Origin: Natronococcus sp. A-GB7
GTDB lineage: Archaea; Halobacteriota; Halobacteria; Halobacteriales; Natrialbaceae
Assembly: GCF_029688865.1 (NCBI RefSeq)
Contig: NZ_JARUKV010000023.1
Location: forward strand, 1 to 64,000
DNA: 64,000 bases
Direction: 5' to 3'
A program made the position numbers and the translations under genes. The first letter of the stretch is position 1; every line of letters starts with the position of its first letter. This document shows, one piece after another, positions 4,242-52,531 of this stretch. The notes beneath the pieces were generated by a model, which saw only the letters and a program-made list of their open reading frames with translations, did no database searches and was not told the DNA's origin.

Positions 4242-5432
4242 TTATCCAGCGGTAACCGCGGTCCAGATTTCGTCGTAGCGTTCGATGACATCGCTCGATC
4301 GGGGCCAGTTATGGAACAGGTTGTCCAGTGTCTCTTCAGAGAGAACCAGATCGTTAATGAAGTCCTCCGCCTCGCCGTACTTCTCCCACTCGTCATCCCA
4401 CTTCTCACGGATGATATCGCCGAGTTCACCATCAGTAAACTCTTCGTTGTCCACTGGCGGGCGATACAGAGATGTCTCGATCATTCGTTCCATCCCCTCG
4501 TCGCTGAAGAGGAAATTCAGGTACATAGTGCTCGTAACTGGGTTCGGGGCGTTCTTAGGAATAATAATCGTGTCAGTCCCCCACGTTGCACCTTCTTCAG
4601 GAATAAACCAGTCGACATCGCCACCCTGGTTGTACATCGCCCTGAACGCTCGTCCGTCCATATGTGTGCCGACTGTCGCATCACCGCTCATCAAGAGTTG
4701 CATCTGCGTCTGATGATCATCGGCGTAGGTGAAGACGAGGTCGCGCTGCTGTTCGAGCACTTCTCTGATTTCCTCGAAGTCGTCGGGATCGTTCGGATCC
4801 TGTCCCGTGTATAAGGCGCCCGCCTCACACAGGATCGCAGGCTGATGAGCGATCATCGATATCTCGTTAGCGAACTCTTCATCCCAGAGGATGTCGATCG
4901 ATTCGGGTGGGTCTTGAAGTTCTTGCGTGTTGTACATCACGATCGGACTGATCACGACCGAGTGGGGAACACCGTAGAGACCGCCTACCCCCTCGTCGCT
5001 CCAGAACTGCTCTTGATGGGCATCAAGATATTGATCGGGAATCTCCACGTTGGGCATCATCTCGATCGGGATCGGCTCCAGCAAATCCTCTTCGACGGCC
5101 CGATACTGCCACTCTGTGAAGGCACCTATCTGATCGATACCATGGTTTTCCGGATTTGACTGAAGATTGGTGAACCAGTCACCTGGTGCTGCATACGTTT
5201 CGGTCGAGAAACTATCGAGATCGTGTTCTTCGGCGAACGTTTCGGTCCCCCACTCATTCCATTCAGCATACCAATTCCAGGTATTGAGCTCGTCGGTGTA
5301 CGATTCCGGCGGCCAATCCTCAATTTCAACCGGCCGGACGTACTCACTGTTGCTGTCTCCTCCGAGACAGCCTGCGAGACTACCTATCCCGATCGCTCCG
5401 GCGGATTTAAGGACATTACGCCTGTTTATCAT
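4242..5432 (-). CDS. ABC transporter substrate-binding lipoprotein, spermidine/putrescine type (paralogue 2)
   Basis: First gene of the importer cluster, 396 aa from the ATG at 5432 (a longer ATG at 5453 adds seven residues before the Tat motif). Signal peptide NRRNVLKSAG, then lipobox LAGCLGG. Very similar to the product at 41-1234 over its whole length, with shared blocks such as PNDPDDFEEIREVLEQQRD and MDGRAFRAMYN. Two receptors in one cluster around one set of permeases suggests that they bring different ligands to the same channel. An A/T-rich TATA-like element (AAAATTTTAAGT on the minus strand, about 5467-5478) precedes it. The divergent IclR gene begins 223 bp away and is the obvious candidate regulator. 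Confidence 0.9.
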   Translation of the reverse strand: MINRRNVLKSAGAIGIGSLAGCLGGDSNSEYVRPVEIEDWPPESYTDELNTWNWYAEWNEWGTETFAEEHDLDSFSTETYAAPGDWFTNLQSNPENHGIDQIGAFTEWQYRAVEEDLLEPIPIEMMPNVEIPDQYLDAHQEQFWSDEGVGGLYGVPHSVVISPIVMYNTQELQDPPESIDILWDEEFANEISMIAHQPAILCEAGALYTGQDPNDPDDFEEIREVLEQQRDLVFTYADDHQTQMQLLMSGDATVGTHMDGRAFRAMYNQGGDVDWFIPEEGATWGTDTIIIPKNAPNPVTSTMYLNFLFSDEGMERMIETSLYRPPVDNEEFTDGELGDIIREKWDDEWEKYGEAEDFINDLVLSEETLDNLFHNWPRSSDVIERYDEIWTAVTAG

Positions 5433-5610
5433 GGTGACATTCATCGGAACCATCTTCGACTACTCACTTAAAATTTTCCTGGACGAGTGTGCGCTCATAC
5501 CATTTTCTCTCCCGAACATTTGATCTGAAACAGAACCTCATTCATTGGTCGGTCAGCCCCGGGATGCCACTTTTTTATTGTTTGTTCTCTCGGTCGACTA
5601 TGGCTTTCGA

Positions 5611-12818: not shown

Positions 12819-12847
12819 GCCGTGATGAGTTGTGGTGTGATAACACG

Positions 12848-14044
12848 ATGGTTAACCGACGCGACGTCATCAAAGGTGCGAGTGCAGCTAGCATAGCGGG
12901 TCTGGCCGGTTGTCTCGGTGGAGACGATGGCGGGACGGACGTCAGACCGGTTGAGATCGATTTCGATAACTGGCCGCCCGACGAGTACGGAGACGGCCTC
13001 AACGCGTGGAACTGGTACGTCGAGTGGAATGAGTGGGGAGCCGAGGATTTCGCCGAGGAGTACGATCTCAGCAACTACAGCACGGAGGCGTACTCGACGC
13101 CGACAGATTGGTTCAGCACCCTTCAGGCGAATCAAGAGAATCACGGCATCGATCACATCGGGGCCTTCACGGAGTGGGTTCACCGCGCTCGGGAAGAGGA
13201 TATGATCGAACCGATTCCGATCGACGAGATGCCGAACGTCGATGTGGCTGATCAGTATCTCGACCCACATCGGGAAATGTTCTGGAGTGATGACGGCGTT
13301 GGAGGCGTCTACGGTCTGCCACACTCGGTTGTGATCAGTCCGATCGTGATGTACAACACCGATGAAGTCGAGGACCCGCCCGAGTCGCTTGACATCCTCT
13401 GGGACGAGGAGTACGCGGATCAGATTTCGATGATGGCACACCACGGCGGGATACTCTGCACTGCCGGCGCCCTGTACACGGGGCAGGATCCGAACGATCC
13501 GGACGACTTCGACGAGATACAAGAAGTGCTCGAACAGCAGCGCGACCTCGTCTTCAACTACGCCGACGAACACGAGACGCAGATGCAACTCGTAATGAGC
13601 GGTGACGCGGCGATCGGCACCCACACCGACGGACGAGCGTTCAGGGCGATGTACAACCATGGCGGCGACGTCGACTGGTTTATCCCTGAAGAAGGCGCGA
13701 CCTGGGGAACGGACGTGATCCTGTTGCCGCGGAACGCCCCGAACCCGGTCACGGCGACGATGTACATCGACCACCTCTTCACTGACCTCGGCTGGGAGAA
13801 GTTCGTCGAAACGACCGTGTATCGCCCGCCGTTCGAAAACGACGAGTTCACCGACGGCGCGCTCGGAGACACCATCCGCGAAAAGTGGGACGACGAGTGG
13901 GAGAAGCATGGCGACGCTGAGGATTTCATCGACGACCTCGTCATCACCGACGAGGAGTTCGACCGGATGTATCACAACTGGCCCCGCTCTGACGACGTCA
14001 TTGATCGGTACGACGAGATCTGGACTGAAGTTACCGCTGGATAG
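12848..14044 (+). CDS. ABC transporter substrate-binding lipoprotein, spermidine/putrescine type (paralogue 3)
   Basis: Third member of the receptor family (398 aa from the ATG at 12848). Tat motif VNRRDVIKGAS and lipobox LAGCLGG near residue 25, then the same acidic binding fold and conserved blocks (GQDPNDPDDF, DGRAFRAMYNHGGDVDWF) as the products at 41-1234 and 4242-5432. No permease or ATPase lies beside it, so it presumably docks on the importer at 1358-4201, about 8 kb away. It is flanked by hydantoinase and M20 hydrolase genes, tying it to the same catabolic task. A long open frame on the opposite strand is a codon-bias shadow. Confidence 0.9.
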   Translation: MVNRRDVIKGASAASIAGLAGCLGGDDGGTDVRPVEIDFDNWPPDEYGDGLNAWNWYVEWNEWGAEDFAEEYDLSNYSTEAYSTPTDWFSTLQANQENHGIDHIGAFTEWVHRAREEDMIEPIPIDEMPNVDVADQYLDPHREMFWSDDGVGGVYGLPHSVVISPIVMYNTDEVEDPPESLDILWDEEYADQISMMAHHGGILCTAGALYTGQDPNDPDDFDEIQEVLEQQRDLVFNYADEHETQMQLVMSGDAAIGTHTDGRAFRAMYNHGGDVDWFIPEEGATWGTDVILLPRNAPNPVTATMYIDHLFTDLGWEKFVETTVYRPPFENDEFTDGALGDTIREKWDDEWEKHGDAEDFIDDLVITDEEFDRMYHNWPRSDDVIDRYDEIWTEVTAG

Positions 14045-36087: not shown

Positions 36088-37110
36088 ATGACCGACGGAG
36101 CACAATCAGGTGGTTCGCGTATCGAATCGTTCGAGCAACGCCATCCGGACGCGAACGTCGAACTGGCCTACGCCGGGATCAAGACGTTTCTGAAAGGCGA
36201 CACGCGACCCGTCGAGGATCTTGAAGGGGTGGACGTGGGTGTGCTCGGAGCGCCGTACGACGGGGCGGTGAGCAACCGGCCCGGAAGCCGGTACGGACCC
36301 GAGTCGATCCGCCGCGCCAGCGGCTGGTGGGCGTACCTCTCGGGATACAAAGGTGGGCTCACCAACATGTATACCGGGGCGCAGGTTGACTACGACGACC
36401 TCGAGGTCGCCGACTGCGGCGACGTCCCGGTGTTCCCGATGGATCGAGAGGCGACCGCCGAGAGCATCACCGCACACGTCGCCACCGTCGCCGAGCAGGC
36501 GTTTCCCGTCCTGCTCGGCGGCGATCACTACTGTACGTTCCCCGCGTTTCGCGGCTTCGCCGAGGGGAGCGACGCCGACGCCGTGGGGCTCGTCCAGATC
36601 GACGCCCACACCGACACCGTCTCGGAGAGCGCGGTCTTCGGCGAGCACTTCCACGGCTCAAGCACGAACCTGATCGCCGAGAGCGAGCACACCGCGTACG
36701 AACACGTCAGCCAGGTCGGCATCCGCGGCTACGAGAGCCCCGAGTTCTTCGAGTTCGCCGACGAGACCGGCCTGAATCTCTACACGATGGCAGATATTCA
36801 CGATCGCGGGATCCAGGCGGTGATCAAGGACGCGGTCGCGGCCGCCGCAGTCGACACCGACGCCGTCTACGTCACGTTCGATATCGACGGGGTCGATCCG
36901 AGCGTCGCGCCGGGCACAGGAACGCCCGTGCCCGGCGGGTTGAGCGCGACGGACGCGCTGGCGGTGATGCAGGTCCTCGGCGCGCACGACGCCGTCGGCG
37001 CGGTCGACATGATGGAGGTCGCTCCGCGCTACGACCCAACCGAGGGCACTCACCGGTTGGCGGCTTATCTGCTCATTACGCTGCTCGAGCGCCGGTTTGC
37101 GGAACAGTAG
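36088..37110 (+). CDS. Agmatinase-family ureohydrolase
   Basis: Binuclear manganese enzyme of the arginase/agmatinase family, 340 aa, which hydrolyses a guanidino compound to an amine plus urea. Metal ligands are all visible: GGDHYC (His147), DAHTD (Asp172, His174, Asp176) and FDIDGVDP (Asp265, Asp267). The N-terminal RPGSRYGPESIRRAS block is standard. Agmatine would give putrescine; guanidinobutyrate or other guanidino acids are equally possible, and the loop residues that choose cannot be judged here. Convergent with the SSS symporter gene. Confidence 0.88.
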   Translation: MTDGAQSGGSRIESFEQRHPDANVELAYAGIKTFLKGDTRPVEDLEGVDVGVLGAPYDGAVSNRPGSRYGPESIRRASGWWAYLSGYKGGLTNMYTGAQVDYDDLEVADCGDVPVFPMDREATAESITAHVATVAEQAFPVLLGGDHYCTFPAFRGFAEGSDADAVGLVQIDAHTDTVSESAVFGEHFHGSSTNLIAESEHTAYEHVSQVGIRGYESPEFFEFADETGLNLYTMADIHDRGIQAVIKDAVAAAAVDTDAVYVTFDIDGVDPSVAPGTGTPVPGGLSATDALAVMQVLGAHDAVGAVDMMEVAPRYDPTEGTHRLAAYLLITLLERRFAEQ

Positions 37111-37128
37111 GTACTGCGGCGGTGAACG

Positions 37129-38502
37129 CTAGGGGTTGCCGTCACTGGTGAGGAGAGTCACGCCAACGAGCACGAGCAGATTCGTGCTAATCCCGTACAA
37201 GATAGGGACGGTCGAGTCGAGACCGTAGACGTTGAGGCTGAGCAGGATTACGGCAATGCTCGTCCCCATCGCCGCGATGACGCCGGTCGAGGTAGCCCGA
37301 CGCCAGAAGAACGCGGCCAGCACCGGGACGAACAGCCCGCCGGTAAGCAGCGCGTAAGCGATGTTGAGTGCGTTGATCACGTCCTGGATCAGTACGGCGA
37401 TCGCGATCGCGACCACGCCGAATCCGAGGATCAACACTCGCGTCCACCGGATGAGTGATTCCTCCCCATCGTAGTCCAGCACCGGATCGAGGATGTCGTT
37501 GACCAGCACCGTCGAAGAGGCGAGGAGATTGCTGTCGGCAGTCGACATCGTCGCGCTGATCGCTGCCGAGAGCAACAGCCCGGCGAGCCCTGCCGGCAGC
37601 AACGAGAGTGTCAACGCCGGAAACGCTCCGCCGCCGTTCTGGAGGTCAAGTGTCACGAGTGCAATCATGCCGAGAACGGCTGCGACGATACCGTAAGCGA
37701 CCGAGTAAAAGCCGGCCAGGAGCGTACCGGTGCGGGCGGTCGCGTCGTCTTGGGCGGTGAACACGCGCTGCCAGATGTCCTGGCCGACGATCATCCCGAA
37801 GAAGTAGAGGACGAATAGCGTGAAGATCTCTCGCGTACCGACCCCGACCGGTGACGTGTGCCCGGCGTCGAGTTGGTTCTCGAGTCCCTGCCAGCCGCCG
37901 ACTTCGAACAGGCCGAGCGGTAACAGCAGGAAGAACACGCCGACGGTCATGATGACAAACTGGAGGAAGTCAGTGATAGTGACCGACCACATACCTCCAG
38001 CGGTGGTGTAGGCGATGATCACGCCGCCACCGAGGACGATCGCGAGCGGCAAACTCACGTCGAAGATGATGCGGAGGATTTCACCGATTGCCGTCATTTG
38101 TGTGACGACGAGCAACAGGCAGTTGACGATGACGATCACGGCACTGACGTACCGTGCCCCCTCGCCGAACCGGTCGTGGAGTGCCTCGGAGAGGCTGACC
38201 GCGCTGAGTTCCGAGAGCCGAGTCGAGAGCAGGATGCCGAGTGCGGTGATCCCCAGCCCGATCCAGATGACCAGCCACGCCCCCGAGAGCCCGTCCTCGT
38301 AGCCGAGTTCGGTCCCGCCGATCGTCGAGGCGCCGCCGAGGATCACGGCCGCCATCGTCGGGCCGTACATCCACAGCGGCAGTCGCCGCCCGGCGACCCA
38401 GAAGTCCTCTTCTGTCTTAGTCATTCGGGCGCCGTAGTAGCCGACGCCAAGTAGTACAACAAGATACGCTCCGATCGCGAGATAGTCAAGTGATTCTGGC
38501 AT
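37129..38502 (-). CDS. Sodium:solute symporter family (SSS) transporter
   Basis: 457-aa membrane protein with about 13 transmembrane helices. The N-terminus YLAIGAYLVVLLGVGYYGAR and the following EEDFWVAGRRLPLW are the classic SSS start. A sodium-site region appears around ISATMSTADSNLLASSTVLVND (about 315-336). It is divergent from the carbamoylase-type M20 gene with only 51 bp between the starts, so both are probably controlled together, and the solute is then likely a ureide, carbamoyl amino acid or related compound. Pantothenate, proline or nucleobase transport are alternatives. Confidence 0.87.
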   Translation of the reverse strand: MPESLDYLAIGAYLVVLLGVGYYGARMTKTEEDFWVAGRRLPLWMYGPTMAAVILGGASTIGGTELGYEDGLSGAWLVIWIGLGITALGILLSTRLSELSAVSLSEALHDRFGEGARYVSAVIVIVNCLLLVVTQMTAIGEILRIIFDVSLPLAIVLGGGVIIAYTTAGGMWSVTITDFLQFVIMTVGVFFLLLPLGLFEVGGWQGLENQLDAGHTSPVGVGTREIFTLFVLYFFGMIVGQDIWQRVFTAQDDATARTGTLLAGFYSVAYGIVAAVLGMIALVTLDLQNGGGAFPALTLSLLPAGLAGLLLSAAISATMSTADSNLLASSTVLVNDILDPVLDYDGEESLIRWTRVLILGFGVVAIAIAVLIQDVINALNIAYALLTGGLFVPVLAAFFWRRATSTGVIAAMGTSIAVILLSLNVYGLDSTVPILYGISTNLLVLVGVTLLTSDGNP

Positions 38503-38553
38503 TCGCTCGTATTCGCCATGGAAACAACACCGAAAAATAATTTGGCATAGCGG

Positions 38554-39837
38554 ATGGTCTGGCCACCGTACGAGGAGCTACTATCCCGCCACGGGGAAAC
38601 CGAGGGTGTGACGCTCGACATTAACGCCGACAGGTATCGAGAGTCGTTCGAGGCGTACTCGGAGATCGGCGCGACTGCGAACGATGGGTTGCATCGGCTC
38701 GCGCTCTCGGAGGCCGATCGGACGGTGCGCGACCGGTTCGTCGACGATCTCGAGGCGCTCGGGCTCGACGTCCGAGTCGACGAGGTTGGCAACGTGTTCG
38801 GTCGACGCGACGGAACCGATCCCGACGCCGAGCCGGTCCTGATCGGATCTCACCTCGACTCGCAACCGTACGGCGGCCGGTTCGACGGACAACTCGGCGT
38901 GCTCACGGCGCTCGAAACGATGCGAACGCTCGTCGATTCGGACGTCGATCACCGGCGACCGATCGAGATAGTGAACTGGACGAACGAGGAAGGATCGCGG
39001 TTCAAACCTGCGCTGATGGGGAGCGGGACGTTCGTCGGCGAGTTCGACGTCGAGGAAACGCTGGCCGCCACGGATGCCGACGGAACGACCGTCGAAGAGG
39101 CACTCGAGGAAATCGGCTACCGGGGAACCGAGCCGTGCGAACCTCGCGAGGGAATCCACGCCTATCTCGAACTTCACGTTGAACAGGGTCCCAAGCTAGA
39201 GGAACGCGACCGCTCCATCGGAATCGTCGAAGGGATTTTCGGGATGGCGTGGCTCGAGGCCACGATCCGCGGCGAATCCGACCATGCGGGTCCGTCGCCG
39301 ATGCACGCCCGACAGGACGCACTGGTCGCGGCTACTGACGTCGTCTCGGGAGTACGTCGACTCTCGAATCGCCTCGCCAACGACGTCGTCACGACGGTCG
39401 GAGAGTTCGAGGTCTCGCCGGGCTCGATCAACGTGATCCCGGATAAGGTCGAGTTCACCATCGACGTCCGCAGTTACGACGACGACGTGGTAGCCGAACT
39501 CGTCGACCGCGTTGACGCGGAGCTTGACGCTGCCTGCGCCCGTGAAGGGACCACGTACGAGCTCGAGGAGCTCTGGCGGATTCCGCATACCGAGTTCGCG
39601 GAGTCGGTCCGCGAGGCCGTCCTCAAGAGCGCTCAGGCGAGAGACGCGTCCCACGTCGAGATGGTCGGCGGCGCGGGGCATGACGCCTCGTACCTGAACG
39701 ACATCACCGATGCGGGGATGATGTTCGTTCCCAGCGTCGACGGAAAAACCCACAACGAGGCCGAGTTCACGGAGTGGGACGACGCGATCGCGGGTGCGCG
39801 AGTGTTCGCGGACACGACGCGGCGACTCGCCCGATAG
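38554..39837 (+). CDS. M20 family allantoate amidohydrolase / N-carbamoyl amino acid hydrolase
   Basis: 427-aa zinc hydrolase of the AllC/HyuC/beta-ureidopropionase branch. Ligands: GSHLDSQPYGGRFDGQLG (His, Asp), WTNEEGSRF (Glu pair), YLELHVEQGPKLE (His), GESDHAGPSPMHAR, and GGAGHDASYLND near the C-terminus. It is the intact relative of the broken copy at 22462-23233 and more distant from the protein at 9866-11128. Shares a short divergent promoter region with the SSS symporter at 37129-38502. Expected products are an amino acid (or ureidoglycine), CO2 and ammonia. Confidence 0.88.
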   Translation: MVWPPYEELLSRHGETEGVTLDINADRYRESFEAYSEIGATANDGLHRLALSEADRTVRDRFVDDLEALGLDVRVDEVGNVFGRRDGTDPDAEPVLIGSHLDSQPYGGRFDGQLGVLTALETMRTLVDSDVDHRRPIEIVNWTNEEGSRFKPALMGSGTFVGEFDVEETLAATDADGTTVEEALEEIGYRGTEPCEPREGIHAYLELHVEQGPKLEERDRSIGIVEGIFGMAWLEATIRGESDHAGPSPMHARQDALVAATDVVSGVRRLSNRLANDVVTTVGEFEVSPGSINVIPDKVEFTIDVRSYDDDVVAELVDRVDAELDAACAREGTTYELEELWRIPHTEFAESVREAVLKSAQARDASHVEMVGGAGHDASYLNDITDAGMMFVPSVDGKTHNEAEFTEWDDAIAGARVFADTTRRLAR

Positions 39838-43923: not shown

Positions 43924-45042
43924 TCAGGAGCCGTCGCCGGAGACCGTTATCTCGCCGACAGCCTCGAGCTGAGACTGATCGAGGTAGACCGACATCTCCT
44001 CTTTCGCGACGAACTCGACGGTCTGGCTCTCGCCGTCCTCGTCGAGAAACGGCGATCGAACGTGGGTGTTCCACTCGTCGCTGTCGTCGCCCTCCGCGAC
44101 CACGAAGTTATGGCCTGGAAGCTGTTCCCCCGGTTCCATCTCGCCCTCGTCGAGTCGCCGTCCGATCGCGTTCTCCCACTCGACCGCGTAGGTCTCATCG
44201 GCCTCGAGTTCGAGGGTGGGGTTGGTCTCGTCGGCGATCTCCTCGGGTTCGACGCCCCGCCAGGCGTCCTCCTCAAGGACGAGCTCGAACGTTTCGACGG
44301 GATCCTCGGTCTCGAGCTGGGACATCGCGACCGTCAGCTCCTCGTCGTCGCCGTCGATCGTTACCTCCTCAGTGACCCGCTCGTGGCCGTACGTCCAGAC
44401 CTCGAGGGAGTACTCGCCGTCCTCGAGCAGGTCGAACCGGGCGATTCCGATGTCCTCGTCTGGCCCCGGACGGGAGGCGATGTTCGAGAACGTGTGTCGA
44501 TCGTCGAGGTACACCTCAGCCTCGAACGGGTCGCCGTCCTCGTCCTCGACGAGCACCTCGAGCTCGTGGGTCTCCTCGGGATCGATTAGCTCGACCGGCC
44601 CCCGCATCTGTGCCGGGTGCGGATCGCAGTAGTACTCCTCCATTTCCGGCTCCGCGGTGAAGGTGAGCTCCTCGAACTCGCCGGCTTCGTCGGTGAACTC
44701 CGTCGCCTCGAGGATGTCACCGTCCTCGTCCTCGATCATGAAGTTGTGGTTCGCGCCGTCACCGTTAATCCAGACGACAGTGTTCTCGACGCCCTCGACC
44801 AGCCGCAGGGGCGGTCCGGTCGCCCCGTCGATCTCGTCGGGTTCGAGGCCGATCCAGCCGCTGACGATCCCCTCGAGTATGAAGGTTCGACCCTCGACAT
44901 CGTTCTGGATCGCCGGGCGCGGTTCGTCGAGCTGTTCGAGGTAACCGGGCGTCGAGCCGGCGACGGCGGCGGTTCCGGCCGCGGCCGTCCCCTTGAGGAC
45001 GCCCCGTCGCGAAAGTTCGTCGGTAGTGCGTTCCTGTGACAT
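43924..45042 (-). CDS. Tat-exported cupredoxin-domain (halocyanin-like) protein
   Basis: 372 aa. Signal peptide SRRGVLKGTAAAGTAAVAG (Tat type). Residues about 75-152 form a blue-copper domain with a full type 1 site: His99 (GANHNF), Cys139, His142 and Met146 (YYCDPHPAQM). A middle region (about 155-250) looks like a carboxypeptidase-regulatory/Ig-type beta domain. A second cupredoxin-like domain follows (HNFVVAEG, then EFVAKEEMSVYLDQSQ) but lacks the Cys-His-Met loop, so it should not bind type 1 copper. It starts 7 bp after the PQQ dehydrogenase stop and probably accepts its electrons on the cell surface. Confidence 0.82.
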   Translation of the reverse strand: MSQERTTDELSRRGVLKGTAAAGTAAVAGSTPGYLEQLDEPRPAIQNDVEGRTFILEGIVSGWIGLEPDEIDGATGPPLRLVEGVENTVVWINGDGANHNFMIEDEDGDILEATEFTDEAGEFEELTFTAEPEMEEYYCDPHPAQMRGPVELIDPEETHELEVLVEDEDGDPFEAEVYLDDRHTFSNIASRPGPDEDIGIARFDLLEDGEYSLEVWTYGHERVTEEVTIDGDDEELTVAMSQLETEDPVETFELVLEEDAWRGVEPEEIADETNPTLELEADETYAVEWENAIGRRLDEGEMEPGEQLPGHNFVVAEGDDSDEWNTHVRSPFLDEDGESQTVEFVAKEEMSVYLDQSQLEAVGEITVSGDGS

Positions 45043-45049
45043 GATGTAA

Positions 45050-46753
45050 TCACTCCTCCATCGAGAACACGGCGAGGGTATCGCCGCGGGGGCCCTGTCG
45101 GAGCCAGCCGCTGCCGCCGACCTGTACGGCGACGTACTGCCGCTCCTCGTCGGGGTCGTACCAGCTCATCGGCGATGCGCTGATCGGCACGTCGAACTCG
45201 TACTCCCAGAGGCGGTCGCCGCTTTCGCCGTCGTAGGCGACGAACTCGCCGTTCTGGGTGCCATTGAAGACGAGCCCCGTCGAGGTCGACATCGAGCCGC
45301 CCCACATGTAGTGGTCGCTCTCGATCTGATCCTGCCAGACAACCTCGCCCGTCGAGGGATCGACCGCGCTGAAGTGGGTGATGTAGCCGTTCCAGTCGTC
45401 GGGCATCTCGTCCGCGGGGTCCTCGAGGCCGCCGCCCCAATAGGGCTCGCCCTCGTCGTAGGTCTCATAGCGCCAGTACAGGTCCTGCGGGAAGTTCTGA
45501 GCCACGAAGTACGCCAGACCCGTCTCGGGACTGTATGAGGGCGGCTGCCAGTCGTTTCCGCCCGGCGCGCCAGGTACGAACGGCACGTACTCGTCCTCGC
45601 TAATGTGGGAGATCATTCCCCACATATTGATGTGTTGGCAGATCTCCTCGCTTCGCTCGTAGAGATATCCCTCGTCAGGATCGAGCATGTACGTCCAGCC
45701 GGTCTTGCCCGCTCCGATCACGACGTCGGTTTCTTCGCCGTCGATCTCGATGTCGCGGACGAGGACTCGCGGCGCGGCCGAATCGTAGTCCCAGACGTCG
45801 TGGGGGCTCTCCTGGAATCCCCACTGAATCTCGCCGCTCTCGAGATCCATCGTGAGCGTCCCGCAGGTCGGGAAGTTCGGCCCCGGTCTGACAGTGCCGT
45901 CGAAGTCGGGACCGGGGTTGCCGATCGGGGTGTAGAGCTGGCCCCGTTCCTCGTCAATCGTCGGCGTCATCCAGCTTGTCCCGCAGCCGTTGTCGCGGCT
46001 CGCGCCGATCCACTCGTCCTCGGGGAGCGTGTCGGAGTGCCACACTTCGTCGCCGTTCTCGGCGTCCAGTGCCGCGAGAAAGCCCAGCACGCCGTACTCG
46101 CCGCCCGCGCTGCCCGTGTAGACGGTCCCTTCGTAGACCACGGGCGCCCACGTCGCGGAGTAGCCGACCTCGTGGTCCGCGGTCTGGGTGTACCACTCTT
46201 CTTCGCCGGTGTACCGATCGAGCGCGACGACGCCCGCGTCGAGCGTCGTCACGTACACCCTGTCGCCGTAGACGGCGGCGCCGCGGTTGTTGTCGTCACA
46301 ACAGAGGATGACGTCGATCGGCGGGGCGTAGGTGTAGCTCCAGAGAACCTCCCCCTCGCGGGCGTCGATCGCCTTCACGTGGTTGGGGCCGTTGGTCTGG
46401 TACATGATCGGCGGATCGCCAGGGACGACGATCGGGGTCCCCTCCATGCTCGACCCGGTGCCGACTGAGAGCTCGTACTCGAGCTCAAGCTCGTCAACGT
46501 TGTCGGGGGTGATGACGTCGGCGGTGGTGTTTCGCTGCTGCTCGTAGCCACCACCGTACATCAGCCAGGATTCGGGATTCTCGCTCGTTTCGCTCAGCAT
46601 CTCCTGGTCGACGTCGAGTTCGGGGATTCGGTCCGTGTCGTGCTGTTCGGTCACTGACTCGTCGGGCAGATTCGTCAGCGTGTAGCCGTCCTCGATCTCG
46701 GTGAGTTCGATCTCCCGTGCGGCCTCGACGGCCCTGTCGTTGCGTAGTGCCAT
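45050..46753 (-). CDS. PQQ-dependent (quinoprotein) alcohol/glucose dehydrogenase-type protein without signal peptide
   Basis: 567-aa eight-bladed propeller of the methanol/ethanol dehydrogenase family. Visible active-site elements: vicinal cysteines Cys151-Cys152 (ILCCDDNNRG), which form the disulfide ring over PQQ; Glu219 (AGGEYG), a metal ligand; and HDVWDYD with catalytic Asp322 and, two residues later, Asp324. An Asp at this +2 position accompanies lanthanide binding in XoxF-type enzymes, but it also occurs in other quinoproteins. There is no Sec or Tat signal, and an in-frame stop just upstream rules out extension. No cytochrome c domain. Starts 6 bp after the gene at 46760. Electron acceptor probably the cupredoxin next door; substrate unknown. 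Confidence 0.85.
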   Translation of the reverse strand: MALRNDRAVEAAREIELTEIEDGYTLTNLPDESVTEQHDTDRIPELDVDQEMLSETSENPESWLMYGGGYEQQRNTTADVITPDNVDELELEYELSVGTGSSMEGTPIVVPGDPPIMYQTNGPNHVKAIDAREGEVLWSYTYAPPIDVILCCDDNNRGAAVYGDRVYVTTLDAGVVALDRYTGEEEWYTQTADHEVGYSATWAPVVYEGTVYTGSAGGEYGVLGFLAALDAENGDEVWHSDTLPEDEWIGASRDNGCGTSWMTPTIDEERGQLYTPIGNPGPDFDGTVRPGPNFPTCGTLTMDLESGEIQWGFQESPHDVWDYDSAAPRVLVRDIEIDGEETDVVIGAGKTGWTYMLDPDEGYLYERSEEICQHINMWGMISHISEDEYVPFVPGAPGGNDWQPPSYSPETGLAYFVAQNFPQDLYWRYETYDEGEPYWGGGLEDPADEMPDDWNGYITHFSAVDPSTGEVVWQDQIESDHYMWGGSMSTSTGLVFNGTQNGEFVAYDGESGDRLWEYEFDVPISASPMSWYDPDEERQYVAVQVGGSGWLRQGPRGDTLAVFSMEE

Positions 46754-46759
46754 TCGTGT

Positions 46760-47662
46760 TCACCTCAGTTCGCTGGGCGCGCGCATCTCGTCGGTGATGT
46801 AGAAGACGTCCCGCATCAGGTCCTCTTGACAGATGATCTGGATCGCGGCGGTACCCATAAATGCCCCCGTCACCGTTTCATCGGCGAACGAACGACTCGT
46901 CGCGAGGTCGGCGACGGCGGTCGCCGCCGCGTAGATCGAACCCAGCAGTGCCTTTACGTACCAGACTGCGTCGTCGAGGATTGGCTCCGTGACGAGCGGT
47001 TCGTACTGCCAGAGGTGGCGATCGAGGCCGCGGATCCACAGCAACGCCCCTCCCATCGTGCGCTGGTACAGCGGCGGAACGATACTCGTGTCGAACTCGA
47101 CACCGTCTGGGATCTGGTTGGCCGGCACCCAGCGGGCGAGCCGGTTGTTGTTGGTCGCGACCGCGGCGAGCAGTGCCGTCCGCTCGGTTTCGTCGAAACC
47201 GACATCCGCGAGGACATCAGAGAGTTCCTCGGTGCCGACCAGTGCTCGCGTCATCCCCTCGATAGTGTCCGACTCAAACCGCGGCAGCGTCTCGTCGAGG
47301 CGCTCGAAAAGGCCGACCTCGAGGAGATGCTCGTAGAGGCGCCATCCGGGTTTGGCGACGGCCGTATAGGGTCCTTCCGGTCCCTTGGGAACTCCACCGT
47401 CGCGAACCGTCGGGAGGCGGTCGATCGCGTCCTCGAGGTTCGCGAGGACGTCCGCGACGAGCGCCCCGTCGAGTTCCTCCTCGAGCCCGTCCCGGATCGC
47501 CTCCCCCGTCGAGGCGAGGGTCGGATCGGGCTCCGTCTCGATGCGGCCAGCGAGACGATCCCACGTTACCACCTCCGCCCGCTCGACGTCGACCTCGAGC
47601 GCGGCAGCCAGGTCGCGTCGCTGTCCGACCGTTACGTACTCATCGATGGGTTGCATTGTCAT
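46760..47662 (-). CDS. Unknown helical protein of the PQQ dehydrogenase operon
   Basis: 300 aa from the ATG at 47662 (MTMQPIDEYV); a longer start at 47728 adds a hydrophobic stretch that is probably not translated. Mostly alpha-helical and acidic, with blocks GPYTAVAKPGWRLYEHLLEV (about 100-120), QRTMGGALLWIRGLDRHLWQ (about 200-220) and a small-residue helix LGSIYAAATAVADLA (about 240-255). No catalytic motif or signal peptide. The 6-bp gap to the quinoprotein gene implies a linked role, perhaps maturation, PQQ loading or an accessory subunit. I do not recognise the family. Confidence 0.7.
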   Translation of the reverse strand: MTMQPIDEYVTVGQRRDLAAALEVDVERAEVVTWDRLAGRIETEPDPTLASTGEAIRDGLEEELDGALVADVLANLEDAIDRLPTVRDGGVPKGPEGPYTAVAKPGWRLYEHLLEVGLFERLDETLPRFESDTIEGMTRALVGTEELSDVLADVGFDETERTALLAAVATNNNRLARWVPANQIPDGVEFDTSIVPPLYQRTMGGALLWIRGLDRHLWQYEPLVTEPILDDAVWYVKALLGSIYAAATAVADLATSRSFADETVTGAFMGTAAIQIICQEDLMRDVFYITDEMRAPSELR

Positions 47663-47914
47663 GGTAACGACCAGCAATATCTGCCACCAATCGAGTAAAT
47701 AATACTTATCGATGATTTCCGCCACCACAGTCGCTGCCTAAGTTCACAGTTGGGTAGCAAAAAGAAAATTCAGGGCAGGTTACCAGGGTCGGCCACGGGC
47801 CGCGGTAGGCGACGGCTACTGCCGGTCGTGAGCCGCGATCCCGACCCCGGCCGTCGGGAGCGAAGCCGTGGCCGCCGGTAGGGTCGGCTCCGCGAGGGGT
47901 CGCCCGAGCCGTCC

Positions 47915-49161: not shown

Positions 49162-49644
49162 TCACTCGCAGATACAGTCTTGTGTCCGAGTCAGTTGAAC
49201 GATCTCGTTATGGAGCTGTCTGCCAAGTCTGTAGATCATTCGAGCACGGTATTCACCAGCAACACCGGTTCGATAATACGACTCCGACCGATTCTCGAGC
49301 CAGAGTGCCTCAAGTCGATCAGCGATATCTTGCGAGAAGAGTCCTGCTTGGACACCCAAGTCGTAGACCTCAGTATGGCGCTGCCCGGCTACGTCGTATC
49401 CCTTTTCTTCAACATAGAATTGAATCGAACGCTCGATGGAGACGAAGCAGGCCTCGATGATGACCGTGAAATGGCCGTTTCGATCGAGCAAGAAGCCTGC
49501 AGCATCGAGGAGGCGACATGCTTTTCGCAACTGGAGAACCGCTGCATCGGAGACGTGCTCGAGTCCGACCTCAGGATTGGTGGGCTTTCTCTGGAAAGCG
49601 TCCTCTGCATCAGCAAGCGCCGTTTCCAGTTCCTTTGAAGTCAT
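49162..49644 (-). CDS. HEPN-domain toxin of MNT-HEPN module 1
   Basis: 160-aa four-helix HEPN protein. The RX4-6H catalytic motif of HEPN RNases is present as Arg139-x5-His145 (RLGRQLH) in the last helix; before it is ENRSESYYRT (117-126). The C-terminus ends in a C-x-C motif (DCICE). Its start overlaps the stop of the upstream nucleotidyltransferase by 4 bp, the standard MNT-then-HEPN order. In studied pairs the MNT protein nucleotidylates the HEPN toxin next to its active site to silence it. Domain call is strong; activity is inferred. Confidence 0.83.
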   Translation of the reverse strand: MTSKELETALADAEDAFQRKPTNPEVGLEHVSDAAVLQLRKACRLLDAAGFLLDRNGHFTVIIEACFVSIERSIQFYVEEKGYDVAGQRHTEVYDLGVQAGLFSQDIADRLEALWLENRSESYYRTGVAGEYRARMIYRLGRQLHNEIVQLTRTQDCICE

Positions 49645-50300
49645 TCGTTTTCCCCTCCAAAGAGATCCCGTTTCACCTCATGCAGTATCGCACTCTCTTC
49701 GAGGATGATTCCCTTTTGAAAGATCGGCTGGAGATCTTCGCCTCGCCTGCGAGCGCTCTCGGGAGATTCAACGAACACCTCAAATTCGTACCGCTGTCCT
49801 TCGATCGGTTCCGACTCGAGTTCTCTCATAATATCAGAAATCGTTCGTCGAGCAGTCACTAGCTCAGTATCATCGTCAACGAGTACAAAAAGATCAATAT
49901 CACTCACACGATCGGCCTCTCCGCGCGCTACGCTCCCAAAGCAAACAATCCCAGCGACAGATGCGATCGTCTCGTTAGTTCTGTCTATAAATCTCCGAAG
50001 CGGTTCTCGGAATTCTTTCTGCGGGATTTCGAGAAACGGGTCATCAACTGCTTGGAGGCGCTGTTCGTTGATTCGATAGAAGGTTTTGTTGCCACTATCG
50101 CGTCTAATCACTAGATCCATTGATTCAAGTAACGAAAGAGCCTTCGAAACACTAGGACCGCCGAATCCAGTCATCTCTTGGAGGTCACGGTTTCCAAACT
50201 CAGTAGATGGATTCTGAGCGGTGAGCTCAAGGATATCATCCATTGCTTTGTATCTGAAAATCTGTTCCTCTGGTAGCGGTAGCCGCAGTTTGATATCCAT
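49641..50300 (-). CDS. Winged-helix/MNT nucleotidyltransferase antitoxin, module 1
   Basis: 219 aa. N-terminal winged helix (about 18-85: DDILELTAQNPSTEFGNRDL ... GGPSVSKALSLLESMDLV) fused to a minimal nucleotidyltransferase domain. The MNT signature is Gly122-Ser123 (CFGSVARGEADRVSDIDLFV) with metal Asp134 and Asp136; the third acidic strand is RYEFEVFVE. Starts 19 bp from a strong inverted repeat (50319-50339) that it probably binds through the winged helix. Antitoxin for the HEPN protein at 49162-49644. Confidence 0.85.
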   Translation of the reverse strand: MDIKLRLPLPEEQIFRYKAMDDILELTAQNPSTEFGNRDLQEMTGFGGPSVSKALSLLESMDLVIRRDSGNKTFYRINEQRLQAVDDPFLEIPQKEFREPLRRFIDRTNETIASVAGIVCFGSVARGEADRVSDIDLFVLVDDDTELVTARRTISDIMRELESEPIEGQRYEFEVFVESPESARRRGEDLQPIFQKGIILEESAILHEVKRDLFGGENE

Positions 50301-51339: not shown

Positions 51340-51846
51340 TCACCGGCCGCAGTCACAGACGCCGCCTTCACGGATCTGGTCGGTGACGTGTCGGTGGATT
51401 TCGCCAGCCAATCGACGCATCGCTTCGGCCTGCCGTTTCGTTGGATGGCGGCCGCCGTAGTAGCTGTCCGTCCGATTGTTGCCGTACAGGTCCTTGAGTT
51501 CACGCGTCAACTCCCGCGTGAAGAGACCGAATCGCGCCGCCTGATCGTAGCAGCGGCCGTGTGAGTCCGTCTGGAAGTCACGCAGCTCGTCACTACCCTC
51601 TGCAATGGCGAATGCCTCCAACGACCGCTCGATAATGCCGAAGCACAACTCGACGACGGCAGTGTAGTAGCCATCGCCCTCGATTTCGTCGACGACGGCG
51701 ACGAGACGGCACCCTTTGGTAAGCTGTGTCTTCCAGTCAGCGTCCGTATCGATTTCCGGTTCTCGTATCGGGACGCCATGGCCCTCTTCGTTGAAGGCAT
51801 CGACGGCCACGTCGAGCGCCTCCCTGACGGCGTTCGGATCACTCAT
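51340..51846 (-). CDS. HEPN-domain toxin of MNT-HEPN module 2
   Basis: 168 aa from the ATG at 51846, which overlaps the nucleotidyltransferase stop by 8 bp; the long upstream open frame is not coding. HEPN fold with Arg145-x5-His151 (RLAGEIH) and the preceding NNRTDSYYGG, matching module 1 (ENRSESYYRT). The C-terminus again ends in C-x-C (VCDCGR). Sequence is clearly diverged from HEPN 1, so the two modules are old paralogues rather than a fresh duplication. Confidence 0.83.
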   Translation of the reverse strand: MSDPNAVREALDVAVDAFNEEGHGVPIREPEIDTDADWKTQLTKGCRLVAVVDEIEGDGYYTAVVELCFGIIERSLEAFAIAEGSDELRDFQTDSHGRCYDQAARFGLFTRELTRELKDLYGNNRTDSYYGGRHPTKRQAEAMRRLAGEIHRHVTDQIREGGVCDCGR

Positions 51847-52531
51847 CGGCATCACCGTGCAGAACCATCTTTCGGACGGTGTCGAACTCGTTAGTTCGAT
51901 GGATGGCGATGCCGTCACGGAGGATTTCTCGAAGTTCGTCTGCGTAGTTTGGAATGGCTTGCAGGCCCTCGACGTCGATCTCGAAGGCGTAGCGTTCACC
52001 GTCGAACGCGTCCTCTTCAAGGGATTGTCTTACGCGGTTCGCCCGCCGCTGGTTGCCCATCCTGTCCTCGCGCACCAACACCCAGAGGTCAATGTCGCTG
52101 CGACGGTCAGCCTCACCGCGAGCGACGCTCCCATATAGGACGACGGCGAGGACGCCGTCGAGTTCGTTCAGTAACGCCTCCATCGCCGCCTTCACCGGCG
52201 CGTGGAACTCCGACTGCGGGATTTCGAGGTAGGGGTCATCCGGTAGGGTCAGCCGGTCGCGGTTGATTTGCACCATGCGACGCGAACCGTCGCGTTCTTC
52301 GACGACGAGGTCGTTGTTGGAGAGGACGTCGACGGTCTTGGTGATTGTCGGCCGCGTGTAGTCGACCGCCTCAGAGATGTTCGTCATCGAGAACGATTCG
52401 TCGCGGTGGCGCATTAAAAAGACGAGGATATCGTCTGTGGCACCCCCCTTGAATAATCGATCGTCTTGAAGGGGTAAATCGACCGATATCCGCGACCTAT
52501 TGATCAGGTTATCGTTCGATCTTGTTTGCAT
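51839..52531 (-). CDS. Winged-helix/MNT nucleotidyltransferase antitoxin, module 2
   Basis: 230 aa. N-terminal winged helix (about 30-90: ATDDILVFLMRHRDESFSMT ... YTRPTITKTVDVLSNNDLV) and MNT domain with Gly134-Ser135 (YGSVARGEADRRSDIDLWVL), metal Asp146 and Asp148, and RYAFEIDVE as the third acidic strand. Same architecture as the protein at 49641-50300. Divergent from the chimeric gene at 52575 with 43 bp between starts, where a short AAAGG/CCTTT repeat may be its operator. Confidence 0.85.
   Translation of the reverse strand: MQTRSNDNLINRSRISVDLPLQDDRLFKGGATDDILVFLMRHRDESFSMTNISEAVDYTRPTITKTVDVLSNNDLVVEERDGSRRMVQINRDRLTLPDDPYLEIPQSEFHAPVKAAMEALLNELDGVLAVVLYGSVARGEADRRSDIDLWVLVREDRMGNQRRANRVRQSLEEDAFDGERYAFEIDVEGLQAIPNYADELREILRDGIAIHRTNEFDTVRKMVLHGDADE

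Follow-up and report, generated by a model that had tools for sequence, protein, structure and literature searches.

A haloarchaeal quinoprotein dehydrogenase without an export signal of its own and its putative copper- and ferredoxin-linked forms

Results

The window analyzed here is the whole stretch of 64,000 nucleotides from Natronococcus sp. A-GB7 (contig C16 of the source genome, G000, in our labels). On its minus strand, three genes are separated by only 6 and 7 bases. These encode an all-helical protein of approximately 300 residues that we named UP (46760..47665), the catalytic subunit of a PQQ-type quinoprotein dehydrogenase (45050..46753, 567 residues), and a predicted Tat-exported cupredoxin of 372 residues, CUP (43924..45042). 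The start codon of UP was taken to be an ATG at 47665 or 47659, the longest open frame reaching to 47728. A Shine-Dalgarno-like sequence, GAGGTGA, is located just 5′ of the quinoprotein ATG at the 6-base gap (46754..46759) and overlaps the stop codon of UP, and the two genes are probably polycistronic and translationally coupled.

The 45050-46753 open reading frame encodes a PQQ beta-propeller (Pfam PQQ match 3.3e-53; PF01011 score 181.7 bits, cut-off 26.7), and its closest solved relative in HMMER searches is PedH (2.8e-67). The NCBIfam methanol/ethanol model TIGR03075 gave 376.8 bits, which is under its curated cut-off of 480.05, and the second-best NCBIfam match, TIGR04528 (acido-empty-quinoprotein), gave 275.7 bits (cut-off 650). 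The predicted structure has a mean pLDDT of 79.3 and a pTM of 0.86, with four weak loops, and it superposes on PedH over 490 residues (Z 39.1, rmsd 2.8, 31% identity). As modelled, the product is a genuine eight-bladed quinoprotein with a fold nearest to that of this lanthanide enzyme.

Residue equivalences to PedH were taken from the HMMER alignment, by which the PQQ and metal site of the window protein is intact, the residues for the quinone and the metal being kept together with the additional aspartate of lanthanide enzymes. In the WDYD motif (W321-D-Y-D324, 45782..45793), D322 corresponds to the catalytic Asp and D324 to the lanthanide-type extra Asp. D322, D324 and K350 are invariant in the family alignment (each 72/72 rows), while R157, W261 and N279 (each 71/72) and E219 (68/72) are nearly so. 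The adjacent cysteines C151-C152 (46298..46303) are each found in 61 of the 72 rows. A lysine instead of an arginine at the quinone site is also known from membrane glucose dehydrogenase. The first-pass annotation had pointed to the extra Asp of the WDYD motif, which is indeed present in every row, and the site, of the PQQ/lanthanide type, models onto that of PedH.

The first-pass annotation suggested looking for pqq genes in the genome, and PQQ synthesis by the known pathway was not found. None of 392 Halobacteriales genomes had a PqqC (TIGR02111) match over the cut-off, two weak hits reaching 19 bits, and the positive control, Sinorhizobium pSymB, scored 428 bits. The PqqE-like matches in the source genome were under the cut-off and uninformative, because such matches occurred in all 14 control genomes. 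As PqqC is missing, the organism probably scavenges PQQ from its surroundings, a task that would be simplest for an extracellular enzyme. The lack of PqqC over the cut-off would also fit a propeller used without PQQ, for example in a binding or structural role as in the acido-empty-quinoprotein group, whose model is the second-best match of this protein. We regard such an empty propeller as improbable, because the PQQ and metal residues are near-invariant, both aspartates and the quinone-side lysine being present in all 72 rows, and because the methanol/ethanol model scores higher than TIGR04528.

The first-pass annotation described a quinoprotein with no export signal and no possible upstream extension, and both statements hold. 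PedH residue 28, at which its chain starts, aligns with residue 47 of the quinoprotein, and a conserved N-terminal extension (residues 1-46, 46616..46753) is located at the position of bacterial signal peptides. In the family N-termini inspected by eye, here and in the relatives, no Tat- or Sec-type leader was seen; the bacterial relatives L108 and L109 carry Sec-type leaders. Judged from the aligned sequences, the signal peptide typical of XoxF and ExaF is missing in the quinoprotein and, family-wide, in the haloarchaeal rows. It was also considered that a wrongly placed start codon or a fault in the assembly might hide a normal signal peptide, for which we found no supporting point. The open frame has 569 codons, only two of which lie upstream of the start, and the Shine-Dalgarno-like sequence sits before the ATG. 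Moreover, the starts of 27 aligned relatives coincide with this one to within a few residues, and their N-termini are conserved over approximately 46 residues, so that orthologues with a longer, signal-bearing N-terminus, named earlier as a refutation, are not what we found. A hidden signal is accordingly extremely improbable. A lost N-terminus or a frameshift was ruled out by the closed frame, the shared orthologue starts and the Shine-Dalgarno-like sequence.

The earlier account named the cupredoxin as the next gene and left unmentioned the main constant partner, UP. This protein has no match in Pfam or NCBIfam. Its model is all-helical (pLDDT 87.0, pTM 0.88) and no clear structural relatives were found in the PDB, the best Foldseek E being 0.27 and the best VIA-align Z being 7.0, within the range that is common for helical bundles. 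UP is located directly 5′ of the quinoprotein gene in 88 of 89 pairs (the exception being L049). In an independent scan of 392 genomes of the phylum, 7 genomes, all Halobacteriales, had UP, and all 11 UP genes adjoined a quinoprotein gene when set against the matches of the quinoprotein scan; among plasmid records UP was found in 8 of 72,556, all haloarchaeal. Public annotations list UP as ‘hypothetical protein’ and the haloarchaeal quinoproteins as ‘PQQ-binding-like beta-propeller repeat protein’. In several loci, the gene caller had missed UP or CUP, which were recovered by tblastn.

The UP proteins of early tree branches have a Tat-like RRxFLK motif in their N-termini (for example DRRNFLKILGVTGSVGAAS and QRRDFLKALGVGGAVATGA), followed by a run of hydrophobic residues (h 1.2-1.8, no more than 1 charge). 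The Pfam TAT_signal model matched 10 of 11 of these Tat-like UPs at E<0.5 (best 8.4e-4), the listed scores of 14 to 19.6 bits all being under the cut-off of 22.7 bits; as a scale for this model, the window CUP with its clear Tat signal scores 20.9 bits. The same model matched 0 of 29 UPs from the window and sister clades, of which three pieces (L085, L086, L102) begin past the twin-Arg position. RRxFLK plus a hydrophobic region is assigned to UP in 17 of 84 loci (Pfam matches under the cut-off) and is absent from the window UP, the UPs of the window clade being without the hydrophobic region of the signal. From gene adjacency alone, UP is known as the constant neighbour of the quinoprotein gene, and it is a candidate export escort.

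CUP matches Pfam Copper-bind (37.3 bits) and is over the cut-off of the NCBIfam TAT_signal_seq model (21.6 bits, cut-off 16.7), in agreement with the earlier description of the next gene as a Tat-exported cupredoxin. Its score with the halocyanin model TIGR03102 is 31.1 bits, under the cut-off of 93.8. In the window clade, CUP is encoded on the same strand immediately 3′ of the quinoprotein gene in 23 of 23 loci, which include a few species that were fetched twice. The twin Arg of the Tat signal region (SRRGVLKGTAAAGTAAVAG..., 44941..45042) and the type-1 copper ligands H99, C139, H142 and M146 (44605..44748) are each present in 23/23 of these CUPs. No membrane anchor or lipobox was seen in CUP by eye. 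N-glycosylation sequons are abundant in the C-terminal tails of several window-clade CUPs, which would be expected of a protein outside the cell; the window CUP has none.

Relatives of the quinoprotein (E<=1e-60) were found in 73 of the 392 genomes of the order Halobacteriales. Those with a name belong to Natronococcus, Natrinema, Haloterrigena, Natrialba, Halostagnicola, Halalkalicoccus, Halogranum and further genera. A 72-row tree was rooted at its midpoint, and the program flagged some of its branches as long. In this tree, a crown clade of 53 rows unites the window clade (23 rows) with its sister clade (30 rows), and the Tat-like UP is absent throughout. It is found in several early branches, and it is also absent from the L067-L073 group, where the signal of UP was lost separately and a cupredoxin gene is located just 3′ in 6 of 6 loci. 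The simplest reading of the tree is that a Tat-like UP was ancestral and was lost at least twice.

We compared 84 loci that remained after the removal of repeats and that share ancestry, counting neighbours within 6 kb, which allowed us to distinguish three main states. The first consists of the 17 loci with a Tat-like UP, in which a cupredoxin gene is adjacent in 7, nearby in 5 and missing in 5. The second contains 28 loci without a Tat-like UP but with a cupredoxin gene directly 3′ on the same strand. No ferredoxin gene was found within this distance in either of these two groups. The third consists of 31 loci with neither signal, in which a gene for a [2Fe-2S] ferredoxin is nearby (NCBIfam Frdxn_Halo, 186.8 bits, cut-off 150). 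A further 7 loci have no Tat-like UP, cupredoxin or ferredoxin; two of these (L088, L098) are at contig ends, and some of the others have their closest ferredoxin gene 7 to 14 kb off. The remaining locus, L049, was set apart. Ferredoxin thus co-occurred with a Tat-like UP or a cupredoxin in 0 of 84 loci, and in the sister clade, which has no adjacent CUP, it was nearby in 31 of 38 loci. The kinship of the 84 loci means that a binomial figure for the ferredoxin linkage overstates its strength.

Sister-type quinoprotein genes had a ferredoxin gene within 5.5 kb in 25 of 28 cases (24 genomes with approximately 3 such ferredoxin genes each); the 28 include G193:C5, whose type was assigned from identity only, and two of the 73 ferredoxin genes that entered this count score just under the family cut-off. 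In the same 24 genomes, the corresponding numbers were 0 of 4 (Tat-like type) and 0 of 3 (window type). Genomes with two sister-type quinoprotein genes usually have one ferredoxin gene for each, and at L060, L056 and L125 a single locus contains two ferredoxin-type quinoprotein copies, and a separate ferredoxin gene accompanies each of them at close range. The quinoprotein and ferredoxin genes are usually on opposite strands, separated by 0.3-3.5 kb and by other genes. The ferredoxin gene is linked to the quinoprotein gene but lies outside its operon.

The source genome itself contains a second quinoprotein on contig C2 that is 64% identical to the first and likewise without a signal. Its gene (G000:C2:5855-7570; L047:5852-7570) has its own UP gene without a Tat motif, no cupredoxin gene, and a Frdxn_Halo ferredoxin gene approximately 2.4 kb away. 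This copy is predicted to be of the cytoplasmic type.

Several other genes recur around these loci. Of 63 quinoprotein loci (L037-L104), 30 have, within 8 kb, genes for NMT1/THI5-like ABC binding proteins or transporters, candidate importers of PQQ, the substrate or the product, and a gene of the Na+/Ca2+ antiporter family, perhaps for the supply of calcium or a lanthanide, is near 16 of 63 (for example L067:9515-10642). Neighbours in the window clade include a formaldehyde-dehydrogenase-like zinc alcohol dehydrogenase (8/18), an HbpS-like protein (7/18) and a molybdopterin oxidoreductase (6/18); the formate dehydrogenase alpha identity is over the cut-off in L055, and the others are under NCBIfam and over Pfam cut-offs. 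These neighbours, none of which was noticed in the window itself, are consistent with the oxidation of alcohols or C1 compounds. In the ferredoxin clade (for example L094:11423-15607), a CDC48-type AAA ATPase is encoded in 21 of 26 loci and a 184-aa protein whose start resembles a zinc finger in 16 of 26, and the same group holds an amphi-Trp protein, an ArsR-type regulator and a methyltransferase-like protein. The AAA ATPase is a possible maturation factor.

Elsewhere in the window, two similar gene pairs, each encoding an HTH-nucleotidyltransferase and a small partner, are located at 49162-50300 and 51340-52531, with a Pfam Polbeta/NTP_transf_2 match at 51839-52531; we take them to resemble duplicated HEPN/MNT toxin-antitoxin pairs. 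Three similar genes for Tat-type lipoprotein-like proteins (41-1249, 4242-5453 and 12830-14044) are near peptidase and amidohydrolase-like genes, and genes for an M20 peptidase, an SSF symporter and an arginase are found at 36088-39837. Together, these lipoprotein-like genes and the genes at 36088-39837 look like a region for the uptake and breakdown of amides and amino compounds.

Discussion

Quinoprotein alcohol dehydrogenases of this type are extracytoplasmic and come mostly from bacteria that also make PQQ. The window sequence offers a gene with an intact site, a constant UP that is Tat-like in relatives and has lost its signal here, a conserved Tat copper protein, and a genome without PqqC. 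From these features we infer a physical complex, hitchhiking on CUP, PQQ scavenging, and with them the metal, substrate, electron path and localization, as follows. The UP-quinoprotein-cupredoxin operon would encode a haloarchaeal PQQ alcohol-dehydrogenase-like complex. The quinoprotein would fold in the cytoplasm bound to its partner, and the Tat pathway would then export the folded complex on the partner's signal, which would explain why the quinoprotein has none. The ancestral signal carrier would have been UP with its RRxFLK motif. In the window clade, where the signal of UP was lost, the Tat signal of the operon cupredoxin would be the only one left. Outside the cell, the complex would take up environmental PQQ together with Ca or a lanthanide, and the quinoprotein would oxidize an alcohol and pass the electrons to the type-1 copper of CUP. 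That the window enzyme is exported in this way, as a folded complex on a Tat signal that is now that of CUP, is the reading that we favour, at about even odds.

The main alternative is that the window quinoprotein is cytoplasmic like those of the sister clade, the signal of UP having been lost in their common ancestor and CUP being exported separately and merely sharing the operon. Its basis is the 53-row crown clade, in which neither UP nor the quinoprotein carries a signal, together with the sister clade, which lacks an adjacent CUP and mostly has a ferredoxin gene nearby. On the other hand, a Tat-type CUP with all its copper ligands is located directly 3′ in each of the 23 window-clade loci, none of which has the ferredoxin, and in the absence of PqqC a cytosolic enzyme would have to import PQQ as well. 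Taking these points together, we consider this alternative rather unlikely. Nevertheless, the sister clade keeps an intact enzyme without a signal on UP or CUP, which suggests that this fold can do without export, and the window enzyme may likewise have turned cytoplasmic. The first-pass annotation raised two options, export together with the cupredoxin or a quinoprotein that stays in the cytoplasm, and both are alive, probably one in each of two sister clades.

In the sister clade, to which the second copy in the source genome belongs, a cytoplasmic location is the better reading, with the ferredoxin as the likely partner. Among the relatives, the export tag is borne by a partner, or it has been lost and a ferredoxin is encoded nearby, which suggests that the quinoprotein family has changed compartment. 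It is conceivable, though we put it forward tentatively, that one haloarchaeal family has moved between compartments, the ferredoxin-linked clade with the second copy of this genome being cytoplasmic and using the ferredoxin as electron partner, and the window copy being exported and copper-linked. Haloarchaeal ferredoxin is of low potential, which PQQ is not, so that an electron flow from PQQ to ferredoxin looks uphill unless the paralogue near the quinoprotein gene differs. This redox mismatch, the position on the opposite strand and the shared ancestry of the loci call for caution in reading the ferredoxin as the partner.

The Cys-Cys ring had been taken as a guide to an extracytoplasmic location, which is not upheld. 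Among the rows of the signal-free ferredoxin clade that span these positions, 29 of 29 keep the pair. It is lost in 10 rows, each with a Tat-like UP or an adjoining cupredoxin, one further row being a gapped fragment. As a location marker, the pair was therefore rejected.

This archaeal quinoprotein family seems to depend on partners for its export, with the signal swapped or dropped in parallel with the redox neighbour, a blue copper protein or a ferredoxin, and it keeps a lanthanide-type site in genomes without PqqC. The two copies in one genome form a natural pair with which to ask if the cytoplasm can house a working quinoprotein, if the Cys-Cys pair needs an oxidizing compartment, and how archaea obtain PQQ.

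Tat hitchhiking is already known for other enzymes. In the literature that we searched, mostly without subscription papers, we found no Tat-hitchhiking quinoprotein, no haloarchaeal quinoprotein of this kind, no UP and no ferredoxin-linked quinoprotein. The window quinoprotein shares its fold with XoxF and the PedH/ExaF-type lanthanide enzymes (Pseudomonas putida PedH, 6zcv/6zcw), and it has in common with PedH the metal-site CC, Glu, Asn, Asp and extra Asp. Unlike these enzymes, it has an N-terminal extension of approximately 46 residues and no signal peptide of its own, its gene is associated with UP and with a gene for a cupredoxin or a ferredoxin, and PqqC is missing from the order; in addition, it has a Lys where PedH has an Arg. 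CUP shares the H-C-H-M ligands and the Tat signal with blue copper proteins of the halocyanin/plastocyanin type, and it differs from halocyanin in its TIGR03102 score under the cut-off, its extra C-terminal part and the lack of a lipobox by eye.

The closest parallels to the proposed export are two bacterial systems. In the FAD glucose dehydrogenase of Burkholderia, the small (gamma) subunit is a helical partner beside a signal-less catalytic subunit and carries the Tat signal for the pair (PMC6719666). The early-branch UP, with its Tat-like motif, would have a similar part. The Burkholderia enzyme is a flavin enzyme, whereas the enzyme here would use a quinone, UP has approximately 300 residues and no clear structural relative, and the UP of the window clade has lost its signal. 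PaoABC is reported to be a ternary Tat hitchhiker complex in which several subunits are co-exported on the signal of one partner (PMC4273604). It is an aldehyde oxidoreductase, whereas the carrier proposed here is a copper protein.
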